DNA from: a virus
Strand: one strand, 5' to 3'
Length of the DNA stretch: 55,941 nucleotides
Virus record (IMG/VR): IMGVR_UViG_3300036715_003593
Coordinates: 1 to 55,941 of that record
Under the pieces are notes generated by a model. That model was not told the DNA's origin. It worked only from the letters and a program-made list of their open reading frames with translations, and ran no database searches. A program made the position numbers and the translations under genes. This document shows positions 29,505 through 33,896 of the stretch, in pieces (positions within the stretch are counted from its first letter, which is position 1; each line of letters opens with the position of its first letter).

Positions 29505-30440
29505 TTAAAAAAGTCCCAGTTGGTCGGGAATAAATTTTGGCTCAGATCCTTTTTCTTCCGAAACCATTTTACCAAGTTTATCGAAAGCGAACATGTTATA
29601 TGTCCAACGCCCGAGATAAGTTTCTTGCATACGTTCCAAGTCAACCCCTTCGTTAGTTAATTTGTCCTCAACTGCTTGACGTAAAATGGGAGGCAAGGTA
29701 GTTATATGTTGCCCTTCCACCTTTCGTTGCGGAGATTGGTTTGAAACGTTAATGACTCTGGCTTCCGGTAATAGGAGCATTCCACCCACTCTCGCAATCT
29801 GAACCCATGAAGACGAGTCTACAGAGTACCATGGGTAGCGCCGCATCAAAATTGGCGTGGTTAAGCCGAAGCCATGGACTTTGAGTTTGGGTCTACCTGA
29901 ACCATCGGTTAAATATTTTCCCCAGATTTCATCCAGCCATAAAAGTAATTGCGGAGTAGACTGAGCTACCATTCCTCCCAAGGTTATGTACTTATAGTTC
30001 TTAATGTAGTGCTCAAGGTAACGGGGATCCTCGCCAAAGTGATAGCACGGCAAAGGTCGGACCCCCATCGATTCCATATGAAGCTGATTCTCATAGGTAC
30101 CTTGGGCATCCCCGATCGCGTCCATCACGGAAGCCAAAATATCCCCATCGTCTTTCCGGATTATGTCATCATTCTTTTTGATATAATCACAATAAGCCAC
30201 CATGTCAACTTTGGCACCCAGTGACCAAGCAGAGAACGCACCACTGTCTAGGAAGACCTGAATTCCGTCCGCCCGAATCATGTCAACCGATCTTTGTCTT
30301 CCAATGTAGTGGTAACTCTCCAAAAGGTTACCAGCGCCGGCACAGAGACGTTGGTATTTTTCGTTTTCAGTTAGACGTTCCCAAAGGGTGCCCCCAATAC
30401 AGAAACCAGCAGTATAGATTCCGGCATTATAAAGTTTCAT
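29505..30440 (-). CDS. dpdA: DpdA-like DNA guanine transglycosylase
   Basis: The 311-residue protein has features of the phage DpdA/TGT-like family: GIQVFLDSGAFSAWSLG with the candidate catalytic Asp, a conserved YKYITLGGMV stretch, then KVHGFGLTTPILMRRYPWY and SVDSSSW. DpdA swaps guanine in DNA for a 7-deazaguanine base, by analogy with tRNA-guanine transglycosylase. It is the last enzyme of the queE-queC-queD-folE cluster here. It overlaps the upstream DUF6884-like gene by 14 bp. The DpdA subfamily cannot be decided by eye. Confidence 0.8.
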   Translation of the reverse strand: MKLYNAGIYTAGFCIGGTLWERLTENEKYQRLCAGAGNLLESYHYIGRQRSVDMIRADGIQVFLDSGAFSAWSLGAKVDMVAYCDYIKKNDDIIRKDDGDILASVMDAIGDAQGTYENQLHMESMGVRPLPCYHFGEDPRYLEHYIKNYKYITLGGMVAQSTPQLLLWLDEIWGKYLTDGSGRPKLKVHGFGLTTPILMRRYPWYSVDSSSWVQIARVGGMLLLPEARVINVSNQSPQRKVEGQHITTLPPILRQAVEDKLTNEGVDLERMQETYLGRWTYNMFAFDKLGKMVSEEKGSEPKFIPDQLGLF

Positions 30441-31026
30441 GTTTTACCAGCCTGATAATATTTCCATCTATTATTTTATCATATCCACGGTGCTTATGTT
30501 TATCACTTAGAACACTTTTGATCGCTTTAAAATAAGAACGATCCGGCAAGAAAACAGTTTTAAGGAAAGCATCTAAATCCTCAACTGTGCCACCTGAATC
30601 TTGAAAAAAGTCCAAGGTTATCTGTCGAATTGATCTTGGAGGATTTCCAGAAAAATACAACTCTCTGGATGCGAAATCTGCTTTCAATCTGTTGATGGCA
30701 CTTTCCGCTAACCCATATGTCATCTTCGGTAACAATCGTTGGTATTGGTCAGGGGCATCTGAAAAATAATCATCCGATCCAAACCAGTAACCTGAGCCTT
30801 CTGGATATTCTCCGAGCAATCTGTTTTGTGCCCGATGATCATAAATCTCGATTTGAGTTTCGGGAAGAATGAAACCGTAGACAGCTGACCGAATCCATAA
30901 AGTAAAACCCTGAATAGCGGCCAGCTCATCCAAATGTCGAAACATCTTCGAACCTGAATAAATTTCCCGAGCTGTGCTACCCTCAATTTTTGTTTTGGGG
31001 CAGGTTATAAGTAGATTGGGTTTCAT
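30427..31026 (-). CDS. DUF6884-like protein adjacent to dpdA
   Basis: The 199-residue protein begins NLLITCPKTKIEGSTAREIY-SG, followed by TLWIRSAVYGFILPETQIE and YD, the N-terminal pattern of DUF6884 proteins, which often have a [ST]C-KTK start and an SAxYG motif. Its coupling to dpdA (14-bp overlap) and to the GTP cyclohydrolase gene (ATGA) suggests a role in making, inserting or recognising the modified base. The exact role is unknown. Confidence 0.55.
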   Translation of the reverse strand: MKPNLLITCPKTKIEGSTAREIYSGSKMFRHLDELAAIQGFTLWIRSAVYGFILPETQIEIYDHRAQNRLLGEYPEGSGYWFGSDDYFSDAPDQYQRLLPKMTYGLAESAINRLKADFASRELYFSGNPPRSIRQITLDFFQDSGGTVEDLDAFLKTVFLPDRSYFKAIKSVLSDKHKHRGYDKIIDGNIIRLVKHETL

Positions 31027-31940
31027 TTACGCTTCGGTATCAACGACATGAACTCTGCGCGAGTTGCTGCCTCAGCCATGAAGAGACCTCGCATCGAAGA
31101 TGTTGTGGTCATTGTGCCATGCACACGAGCACCGCGAGAGCTCATACAAGTATGTTCACATTGAACTACTACAGCTACCCCTCGCGCTTCCAGATGCTCT
31201 GCCAAGGCATCTGCGATTTGATTAGTCAAACGTTCCTGAACCTGAAGGCGGTGGCTGAATGCCTTTACCAACTTTGGTATCTTGGATAGACCAACAATGC
31301 GACCATTTGGTATGTACGCAACATGGGCAACTCCGTGGAAACGAGCCATGTGGTGCTCACAGAAACTTTCCACAGGGATGCTATCGATAATAATCATCTC
31401 ATCACAACCTTCTGCACCGTCCGTGAAGGTCTTGAACAAGCCAGCGATGTCGGTGGTATAACCATCGAACCATTCCTGATATGCCTTGGCTACTCGCTTC
31501 GGGGTTTCTAGTAAGCCTTCACGGTTTGGATCCTCGCCGATGAACTGAAGCAGGCGACGAATATTGTCTTCGATGCTGCTTTCTGAATCGCCTTCCCAAG
31601 GAAACACCACCCAATCATATGCCTCTCTGTAAATCGGATCGGTCTTATCGATTAGAGCATAAAATGATTTGCCTGGATACATATCGCAATAACGTTCCAT
31701 AGTTGCGCCGGAGTCAATAATGTCGTCGACAAAAATGTCCGCCTCTTCTGGGGTGAGCGCAATCCTGATGTCCAGGTGCGTATAGTTAGCAGCAGCTATC
31801 ACCGCATATAAAGCAGGTATACCACCTCGAGGAATTGCGTAAGCTCGAATATGATCTTTGCCATTCATCTGGATCTTGCTGGCAACGATTACCGCTAGAT
31901 CCATAATATCGTTGTGGTTTAAAATTGTTTTTGCGGACAT
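31023..31940 (-). CDS. folE: Fusion of xanthine/guanine-type phosphoribosyltransferase with GTP cyclohydrolase I
   Basis: The start at 31940 (MSAKTILNHNDIM) gives a 305-residue protein, with a 65-residue upstream extension rejected because it overlaps queD. Residues 1-118 form a compact PRT domain: AIPRGGIPAL, the PRPP loop ADIFVDDIIDSGATM at 67-81, and a C-terminal DWVVFPWE as in Gpt-type enzymes. Residues 120-305 are GTP cyclohydrolase I with EDPNREGLLETPKRV, zinc ligands in SFCEHH and QCEHTC, and KIPKLVKAFSHRLQVQE. The second half makes dihydroneopterin triphosphate, the first precursor of 7-deazaguanines. The fusion may channel guanine to GTP or act on a deazapurine base; that is speculation. 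Confidence 0.8.
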   Translation of the reverse strand: MSAKTILNHNDIMDLAVIVASKIQMNGKDHIRAYAIPRGGIPALYAVIAAANYTHLDIRIALTPEEADIFVDDIIDSGATMERYCDMYPGKSFYALIDKTDPIYREAYDWVVFPWEGDSESSIEDNIRRLLQFIGEDPNREGLLETPKRVAKAYQEWFDGYTTDIAGLFKTFTDGAEGCDEMIIIDSIPVESFCEHHMARFHGVAHVAYIPNGRIVGLSKIPKLVKAFSHRLQVQERLTNQIADALAEHLEARGVAVVVQCEHTCMSSRGARVHGTMTTTSSMRGLFMAEAATRAEFMSLIPKRK

Positions 31941-31942
31941 GG

Positions 31943-32368
31943 TTATTCCTTTATAAATGATGCTGCACATTTGCGAGTTTCTTCGAATCGCACCGAGATA
32001 AGAACTGCCCCTGTTCCAGCCAATTGAACTGGTCCAACCACTTCGACCAAATACTTGGCGAGATTTTCTGCGGTAGGATTGAAAGGGACTATTACTGTCC
32101 CGACCGGATCGATCTCCGGCAAGGTCTTTGACCATGGATCATTCTCCCACAAAAGGAATTTATGATCCCAGTTATCTTCGAGCCATTGAGCCAGCAACGT
32201 TTTCATCACCGAAAAGTCAAGAACCCGCCCTACTGAATCCAAACCATCGGAAGTAATTGTAAAATGAACACGGCCGTTATGACCATGCATCATGCTGCAT
32301 TTTGATTCGTGTTGGTATACCCGATGACCGTACGAAAAGTCATGATATCTATCTGCGGTGAAAGTCAT
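31943..32368 (-). CDS. queD: QueD, 6-carboxy-tetrahydropterin synthase
   Basis: The 141-residue protein carries the zinc histidines at 15 (YGHR), 28 and 30 (MMHGHN), the catalytic Cys24 (SKCSMMHGH) and a C-terminal VRFEETRKCAA with the conserved Glu. It turns dihydroneopterin triphosphate into 6-carboxytetrahydropterin, the QueE substrate. It overlaps queC by ATGA, and its stop lies 2 bp before the PRT-folE start. All key residues are present. Confidence 0.9.
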   Translation of the reverse strand: MTFTADRYHDFSYGHRVYQHESKCSMMHGHNGRVHFTITSDGLDSVGRVLDFSVMKTLLAQWLEDNWDHKFLLWENDPWSKTLPEIDPVGTVIVPFNPTAENLAKYLVEVVGPVQLAGTGAVLISVRFEETRKCAASFIKE

Positions 32369-33138
32369 GCTAATACTCCTTTGCGATATGAATCATAGTT
32401 GGAAGATAAAGGGAGATTCATCAAACCCTCAGTGTGTGCGCGCAGCACCAACGGATCAGGCTGACCAGCATCCTCAAATCCTTTGGCGCGCAGCACATTG
32501 GCATGATTCATGTCGGTGGGAGGATACTTGCCATCGTAACTTGTATGAGAATAGGCTAGTGCTTCCCAGCAGCCGGGCAATGAGCGCGCCATGTCCACAG
32601 TTTCAGCTTTCGATAAATTCATCAGTGGGGTATGGATAAAGATTTCAGGAGTTCCCCTGTGGTCATGGCCAAGGGCGGTATTGATATATTGCTCAGTAGT
32701 ATAAATGAAGTTTGGGCGACAATCATCGTAGTTAGCACCGTCCATTTGGCACACGCCGGTCATAAGATTAGGAATGCCAAGAGCTTCAGCCCGGTTGGCT
32801 GCGATCGTCAAAAAAAGAGCGTTGCGCATTGGCACAAAAGTCAGCTCTCTGCGATTGCCGATTTTGTTACCCATCTGTTCAGCGTTCTCATATTGCTCCA
32901 AACTTGAATTGCTGGTTAAAGGAGACATGGAGATCAAGCAATTCGGAACCTCGACAATTTCATGGGAGGATACGTTAGCCAGCTGTGCCACCTTTATTGC
33001 AGCCTCAATTTCGATAGCATGGCGCTGGCCATAATCAAAAGTGATGGCATGCACTTCAGAGTACTGTTGCTTTGCCAAAAAGAGGCAAGTGGTTGAATCC
33101 TGCCCTCCCGATAAGACAACTAAAACCTTTGTTTTCAT
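32365..33138 (-). CDS. queC: QueC-like 7-cyano-7-deazaguanine synthase variant lacking the zinc cysteines
   Basis: The 257-residue ATP-pyrophosphatase-type protein has the PP loop LSGGQDSTTC (9-18), FDYGQRH and ELTFVPMRNALFL. Normal QueC makes preQ0 from 7-carboxy-7-deazaguanine using ATP and ammonia, with a zinc site of four Cys. Here those positions read Ser200, Thr208, Asn211 and Asn214 (TSYDGKYPPTDMNHANVLRAKGF), so the zinc site is gone while the surrounding LRAKGF is kept. It may make a different derivative (carboxamide, carboxy or free deazaguanine) or work without zinc. Position in the operon supports a pathway role. Confidence 0.85.
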   Translation of the reverse strand: MKTKVLVVLSGGQDSTTCLFLAKQQYSEVHAITFDYGQRHAIEIEAAIKVAQLANVSSHEIVEVPNCLISMSPLTSNSSLEQYENAEQMGNKIGNRRELTFVPMRNALFLTIAANRAEALGIPNLMTGVCQMDGANYDDCRPNFIYTTEQYINTALGHDHRGTPEIFIHTPLMNLSKAETVDMARSLPGCWEALAYSHTSYDGKYPPTDMNHANVLRAKGFEDAGQPDPLVLRAHTEGLMNLPLSSNYDSYRKGVLA

Positions 33139-33139
33139 T

Positions 33140-33847
33140 TCATTCGACTCCTATGATTTTGTGAACTTGTAATTGTAAAAGGTAACCATATTTTAACACA
33201 CTTTCTGTTATTGCCTTTAGATTAGATAGATTCTTTTCATCATCTTGCTCATCGGCAGGTTGCAGATAAATCGGACCATCAAATCCTGCCGGTGGGCGTG
33301 CGAGGCGAGGGTTTGCGGGGTGATCGAGTGCTGACAGGGGTAATCCATCATCCTCTGCTAAGTCTCCCGCTTTGCCCACGTATTTAAGGGCGGAGATATA
33401 CGGTGCCAAGTTTTTATTAATTGTGCCAGTCTTTGGACTACAAACCACTGTGATTCCATCATAAGGCAAATCGCGATATAATGATCCATTGGTTTCAATT
33501 TGAACGTCGAAGTTGAATTCCAATAAAATGGAAACGGTTGGTTTAACGTTTTGCCGAAGGGGCTCCCCGCCAGTGATTACCACTAACTGTCTTTCCTGAC
33601 CAGGCTCCCAATCTTCCGGCAAAAGAGAATTGACTTCTTCCAACAGTTGACGGGGGGAAAGCCAAACACGCTCCGAGGTATAATTTGTATCACAAAGAGG
33701 GCAAGCCAAGTTACAGCCAGCTAGACGGATGAAAACTGCTCGCCTGCCAGTAAAAGGACCTTCTCCTTGAATGGTATTGAAAACACTATGGACTGCTAAA
33801 ATTCCAGAGTCATCGTGAGTGGATTTTTCTATTTTTTGCGTATTCAT
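33140..33847 (-). CDS. queE: QueE, 7-carboxy-7-deazaguanine synthase (radical SAM)
   Basis: The start at 33847 follows GGAGATCTT; upstream residues of the longer frame are not needed. The 235-residue protein has VHSVFNTIQGEGPFTGRRAVF and the 4Fe-4S motif CNLACPLCDT (CX3CX2C), followed by ITGGEPLRQ. It rearranges 6-carboxytetrahydropterin to 7-carboxy-7-deazaguanine. It is the first gene of the modification-replication operon, behind an extended -10 promoter. Confidence 0.9.
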   Translation of the reverse strand: MNTQKIEKSTHDDSGILAVHSVFNTIQGEGPFTGRRAVFIRLAGCNLACPLCDTNYTSERVWLSPRQLLEEVNSLLPEDWEPGQERQLVVITGGEPLRQNVKPTVSILLEFNFDVQIETNGSLYRDLPYDGITVVCSPKTGTINKNLAPYISALKYVGKAGDLAEDDGLPLSALDHPANPRLARPPAGFDGPIYLQPADEQDDEKNLSNLKAITESVLKYGYLLQLQVHKIIGVE

Positions 33848-33868
33848 AAGATCTCCGTAGGTGTATCC

Positions 33869-33896
33869 ATTATAACACAATCTCCTTGGTACCCAA
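33869..33896 (-). promoter_or_regulatory. Sigma70-type promoter of the queE-to-polymerase operon
   Basis: On the minus strand TTGGGT (33896-33891), 16 bp, then TGTTATAAT with an extended -10 TG (TATAAT at 33874-33869). The queE ATG lies 22 bp further on. No structure resembling a preQ1 riboswitch is seen between promoter and start. Confidence 0.7.

Follow-up and report, generated by a model that had tools for sequence, protein, structure and literature searches.

With a single active site, QueC takes a carboxylic acid all the way to a nitrile, and its listed requirements include zinc. In E. coli QueC, Y35, R99, Y131, and Y189 are indispensable, or almost so, to preQ0-dependent Q formation, and zinc has been described as required for function (PMC13329287), which counts against a preQ0 synthase that is free of zinc. 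The anti-phage defence proteins QatC and Cap9 have the QueC fold and the PP loop in common with the protein described here but, unlike the latter, act by modifying proteins, have retained the zinc site (PMC13279940, PMC13329287), and sit in defence operons. Work on QatC indicated that the zinc site completes the fold, suggesting a structural role of zinc in the family (PMC13279940). Among phages, those of the Seurat/CAjan type possess a four-cysteine QueC in a dPreQ0-type cluster; the QueC of Seurat (L015) keeps the HTCYNG...CGECPAC segment. Zinc and zinc-free (C-minus) paired forms, the latter having lost all cysteines together, are known from the zinc-ribbon ribosomal proteins L31, L36, and S14.

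The present analysis concerns a queC gene in a viral sequence record 55,941 bases long, the whole of which is referred to as the window. Its product shares with canonical QueC (E. coli, B. subtilis 3BL5, and P. atrosepticum 2PG3) the fold, the PP loop, the YxQxHxxE, VPxRN, and YxDC motifs, the lysine, the essential tyrosine in the zinc region, and an operon with queD and queE. It differs in lacking the four zinc cysteines and in having a YDGxYPP...[ND]H motif and a tail of about 20 residues. As the zinc site is missing, this protein represents a zinc-free variant and not canonical QueC. The FolE-QueD-QueE-QueC-DpdA cluster is common to the window and the Seurat/CAjan-type phages, the window QueC being about 38% identical to that of Seurat. 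As in the C-minus ribosomal proteins, zinc and zinc-free forms occur in pairs, whereas zinc-free QueC is an enzyme and is spread mainly by phages.

The window QueC and its gene cluster

The gene (Table 1) is preceded by a GGAG resembling a ribosome site, and its product matched the Pfam family QueC (PF06508; E=1.9e-50; 171.7 bits, cut-off 22) and the NCBIfam QueC equivalog TIGR00364 (160.7 bits, above the cut-off of 150.3). The phosphate loop has the canonical SGGxDS form, and the catalytic residues Y36, Q38, H40, E43, R105, N106, Y137, D139, C140, K177, and Y201 are in place. The published YxQxHxxE, VPxRN, Lys165, and Tyr189 signature (PMC13329287) was present, YPDC reading YDDC, and Tyr201, which corresponds to Tyr189, an essential residue in the E. 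coli enzyme, lies inside the old zinc region. The C(x)8CxxCxxC zinc site was absent. The preliminary description had placed S200, T208, N211, and N214 at the positions of the zinc ligands, which was exact: across 171 aligned, distinct QueC proteins, these residues occupy the cysteine columns; it was also right about the intact PP loop and LRAKGF motif. Structure prediction, which it had proposed for the C-terminal region, gave a model that keeps the QueC fold: the AlphaFold model of the window QueC had a pLDDT of 96.4, the blocks covering the former zinc region and the tail averaged 94-98, the last few residues excepted, and its closest solved folds were the QueC structures 2PG3 and 3BL5.

Table 1. 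Features of the 7-deazaguanine gene cluster and of the QueC protein in the window
Feature	Position	Strand	Evidence
Zinc-free QueC (predicted preQ0 synthase, 257 aa)	32365..33138	-	Intact ORF, ATG start, Pfam and NCBIfam matches
PP loop SGGQDS, residues 10-15, intact	33094..33111	-	Invariant in 12-phage alignment
Former zinc region, residues 194-221, LAYSHTSYDGKYPPTDMNHANVLRAKGF	32476..32559	-	Alignment; Ser200, Thr208, Asn211, Asn214 for the four cysteines
C-terminal tail, residues 229-257, conserved Pro243, Asn247, Tyr248	32368..32454	-	Sequence comparison
QueE	33140..33880	-	PHROG 2076 E=5e-50; NCBIfam QueE models E to 9e-23, below cut-offs
QueD (6-carboxytetrahydropterin synthase)	31943..32368	-	PF01242 E=1.3e-23; PHROG 2389
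Phosphoribosyltransferase-like domain and FolE (GTP cyclohydrolase I) fusion	31023..31940	-	PF01227 E=4e-70; phrog_8995 E=1e-6
DUF6884-like gene between FolE and DpdA	30427-31026	-	Weak, 28.4 bits, just below cut-off
DpdA-type DNA base-exchange enzyme	29505..30440	-	PHROG 887 E=6e-73; 48% identical to Iggy DpdA

The queC gene is part of a minus-strand cluster coding for QueE, QueC, QueD, a phosphoribosyltransferase-FolE fusion, a DUF6884-like protein, and DpdA, adjoined by genes for a sliding clamp and a DNA polymerase. Hence queD, queE, and folE lie alongside, as is the case for canonical QueC, and the neighbours QueE, QueD, FolE, and DpdA are not those of a QatC/Cap9 defence operon with QatA/QatD or a CD-NTase. 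No QueF was recognised in the window cluster. The reading frame of the FolE fusion is open from 32135, the methionine at 31940, beside the queD stop, being the likelier start. Among 47 viral loci of at least 12 kb with a zinc-free QueC, DpdA and FolE were found in all 47, QueD in 44, QueE in 42, and QueF in ten.

Two further components of the cluster were compared between loci. The phosphoribosyltransferase-like domain is N-terminal in the window FolE and contains a VDDIIDSGAT motif; such domains, fused or separate, occurred in 21/47 zinc-free and 8/23 zinc-bearing viral loci, the separate copies matching PF00156, one of them above the cut-off and the rest weakly. Possibly, this domain salvages the guanine released by DpdA, thereby supplying GTP to FolE. 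The DUF6884-like gene had almost no relatives in the loci fetched for comparison.

Distribution among phages and bacteria

Viral contigs were scanned with search patterns outside the zinc region, the best 80 loci being kept, and phages already in hand were added. Within this selection, 79 distinct clade members were obtained, 77 of which lacked all four cysteines, two had four, and none had a partial set. Y35, Q37, E42, R99, N100, Y131, D133, K165, and Y189 (E. coli QueC numbering) were kept in 79/79 of these members of the best 80 loci and the phages, and H39 and C134 in 78/79. The same replacement was present in the Pseudomonas phages Iggy (L001), Knedl (L223), HTN2/AA17 (L222), and Baskent, as well as in the phages MMDA13 (Sphingomonas), HD01 (Acinetobacter), RHEph06 (Rhizobium), Erebus (Aminobacter), R5C and R26L (Dinoroseobacter), Pan1 (Pseudanabaena), Me-ZS1 (Microcystis), ZHS (Edwardsiella), ART (Achromobacter), 83AMN (Vibrio), and VPv64 (Variovorax). 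It also occurred on numerous viral contigs and on the chromosomes of some bacteria. A literature search on zinc-free QueC or DpdL returned nothing helpful, and loss of the zinc site was not mentioned in what it returned.

Addition of zinc-bearing relatives and bacterial copies gave the wider set of 171 distinct QueC proteins, of which 98 had none of the cysteines, 73 had all four, and none was intermediate, in agreement with the complete loss that had been noted for the window protein. The view that this loss, which marks out a group, is not random decay held as well, nonsynonymous change being far below synonymous change: pN was 0.18 and pS 0.80 between the window QueC and that of L017, and dN/dS was 0.06-0.10 in unsaturated bacterial pairs. 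Decay of the gene was thus rejected on the basis of this selection pattern, the intact reading frame, and the many independent relatives. Similarly, a frameshift or misassembly that hides the cysteines, named in the preliminary description as a possible refutation, was ruled out because the frame is intact and independent phage isolates and contigs carry the same replacement.

Two other arrangements were encountered. Vibrio phage GR7B (L012 5989-7579), as well as GR11A (L227), contained two tandem genes annotated as queC; in GR7B, these were a zinc-bearing relative of the window QueC clade and a divergent paralogue with a CxxCxxC end, and a scan with GR7B QueC as the query gave no matches. In Ensifer, open reading frames (L174 4081-4485 and L175 6785-7189) corresponded to only the C-terminal part of zinc-free QueC, directly followed by queD in L175, and are possibly prophage remnants.

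When genomes were scanned for the zinc-free ending, 16 assemblies turned out to have it. As judged from draft and MAG assemblies that are incomplete, zinc-free QueC was the only full QueC in Brackiella oedipodis (G011, Alcaligenaceae) and in a lineage with genomes of about 1 Mb, represented by metagenome-assembled genomes and one single-cell genome, of which 14 species have it in common. The next PF06508 matches in these genomes, of about 20 bits and in other, longer frames, are presumably other PP-loop enzymes. Genes for Tgt, QueA, QueF, and QueD were found in both Brackiella and the 1-Mb genomes, except that QueA is in three pieces in G008 and the Tgt frame is shortened in G005. For QueE, the 1-Mb genomes tested gave a weak match adjoining QueC (E 2e-12 to 3e-9) and Brackiella a stronger one adjoining QueD (E 3e-27), all of them under the curated cut-off. 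In the 1-Mb lineage, the queC neighbours were chromosomal, namely genes for methylmalonyl-CoA mutase, ThyX, and the QueE-like radical SAM protein. Since the substrate of QueC comes from QueE and its product goes to QueF, the zinc-free QueC fills the gap in these bacteria. The QueC proteins of the relatives of Brackiella and of more distant relatives of the 1-Mb lineage were only 29-47% identical to it and had four cysteines in all cases read. It thus looks as if canonical QueC has been swapped for zinc-free QueC twice, once in Brackiella and once in the 1-Mb lineage, providing natural complementation tests.

The former zinc region and the evolution of the zinc trait

The zinc-free QueC proteins share a replacement motif, HT[SA]YDGxYPP...[ND]Hx[NTS]xLR, in which the residues in place of the four cysteines are patterned (Ser/Ala; mostly Thr or Val; Asn/Asp; and Asn/Thr/Ser) and His212 is invariant. 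By raw counts that ignore relatedness, positions 211 and 214 formed the pair N-N in 60 proteins, D with T, S, or N in 37, and A-N in one, a covariation that would fit a mutual contact. The tail, ending in P...NY, was present in 98/98 zinc-free and 1/73 zinc-bearing QueC proteins; in L010 and L167 it was recognised by reading, as the pattern match did not pick up these two rows.

A single clean loss of the zinc site was considered as the origin of the trait. The full-length tree nearly fits this, needing two changes, with 36 zinc-bearing rows nested inside zinc-free ones. When the tree was built only from the sequence preceding the zinc region, 11 changes were needed, and a single zinc-free clade was rejected (p-AU 2.8e-5). 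Both trees came from quick searches and had many weak branches, and the number of changes is uncertain because of this quick search and the 196 columns of the shorter alignment. In addition, the QueC proteins of L118, with four cysteines, and L089, with none, were 81% identical before the zinc region and lay in matching gene clusters, and the QueC of L048 combined four cysteines with the tail. Tentatively, the zinc knuckle may be an exchangeable module in phages, swapped with the zinc-free motif plus tail in both directions and several times, by recombination or because the four cysteines were lost and regained together more than once, with the function unchanged.

Proposed reaction product and mechanism

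In all likelihood, the window QueC is a preQ0 synthase in which the zinc knuckle has been replaced by a polar cluster and a tail, and which, as judged from its sequence, would perform the ordinary reaction without a zinc site. Since some bacteria with a complete queuosine pathway have no QueC other than a zinc-free relative, the normal product, preQ0, is very probable; we infer this product, the absence of a bound metal, and the DNA base of the window phage. The zinc-free QueC would convert 7-carboxy-7-deazaguanine (CDG) with ammonia and two ATP into the amide and then into the nitrile preQ0, FolE, QueD, QueE, and QueC of the phage together leading from GTP to preQ0. DpdA would subsequently swap guanine in the phage DNA for preQ0, and the resulting dPreQ0 would shield this DNA from restriction. 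In canonical QueC, the C-terminal end of the fold is closed by a Zn(Cys)4 knuckle, and this structural role would be taken over by the polar cluster (Ser/Ala, Thr/Val, Asn/Asp, and Asn/Thr/Ser), the invariant His212, and the P...NY tail. The sequence would also be compatible with another metal or another set of ligands. Phage Iggy, which has the same zinc-free QueC, carries dPreQ0 in its DNA according to the title of Olsen 2023, a reference given by PMC11008142 and PMC11945000; in the same two articles, the DNA of AA17 is described as resistant to eight restriction enzymes.

The preliminary description had drawn a further consequence from the missing cysteines, namely that the enzyme derives from QueC but makes something else, such as 7-deazaguanine for the DNA if it were a CDG decarboxylase. 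The unusual C-terminal region would favour such an enzyme, as would DpdL, a phage CDG decarboxylase that has reportedly been proposed. This consequence was not supported and is highly improbable, given that all residues essential for preQ0 formation are kept, including the counterpart of E. coli Tyr189, within a complete catalytic set; that zinc-free QueC alone can link QueE to QueF in bacteria that also have QueD, Tgt, and QueA; that zinc-bearing and zinc-free QueC occur in matching clusters, as in the 81% identical pair; and that Iggy DNA is, by the cited title, a dPreQ0 DNA (PMC11008142, PMC11945000). A milder departure would be an enzyme that halts at the amide, 7-amido-7-deazaguanine, the second ATP step being lost without zinc, so that the DNA carries dADG. 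The amide is indeed an intermediate of the QueC reaction (PMC13329287) and dADG a known phage DNA base (PMC6884629). Nevertheless, this is quite unlikely, as QueF, which takes the nitrile, accompanies a sole zinc-free QueC in bacterial genomes and stands beside 10/47 zinc-free viral copies; the dPreQ0 in the title on Iggy also argues against it, and the dADG phage MED16 has dpdA while lacking the preQ0 synthesis genes.

Alternatively, the phage protein could be non-catalytic, with a regulatory or channelling role, and preQ0 could come from the QueC of the host. Hosts such as P. aeruginosa, that of Iggy, have a QueC of their own, and host preQ0 could therefore explain the dPreQ0 of Iggy. In addition, the Gat-QueC of phage 9g did not complement an E. 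coli delta-queC strain, yet fed DpdA (PMC6884629). A non-catalytic role is very improbable all the same, in view of the strict conservation of every catalytic residue, the purifying selection, and the bacteria in which zinc-free QueC is the sole copy.

Conclusions

Zinc-free QueC is a real feature of a known enzyme, absent from the literature found, from which the preliminary description drew a less likely consequence. The published signature C(x)8CxxCxxC would overlook or misname such proteins. Zinc-free preQ0 synthesis, if true, means that the chemistry of QueC does not need zinc, and zinc in QueC should then be structural only. Because a large natural group without zinc ligands retains the full catalytic set and provides the only QueC in living bacteria, the role of zinc can be tested directly, and Brackiella oedipodis, available as a cultured type strain, could serve for such a test at once.
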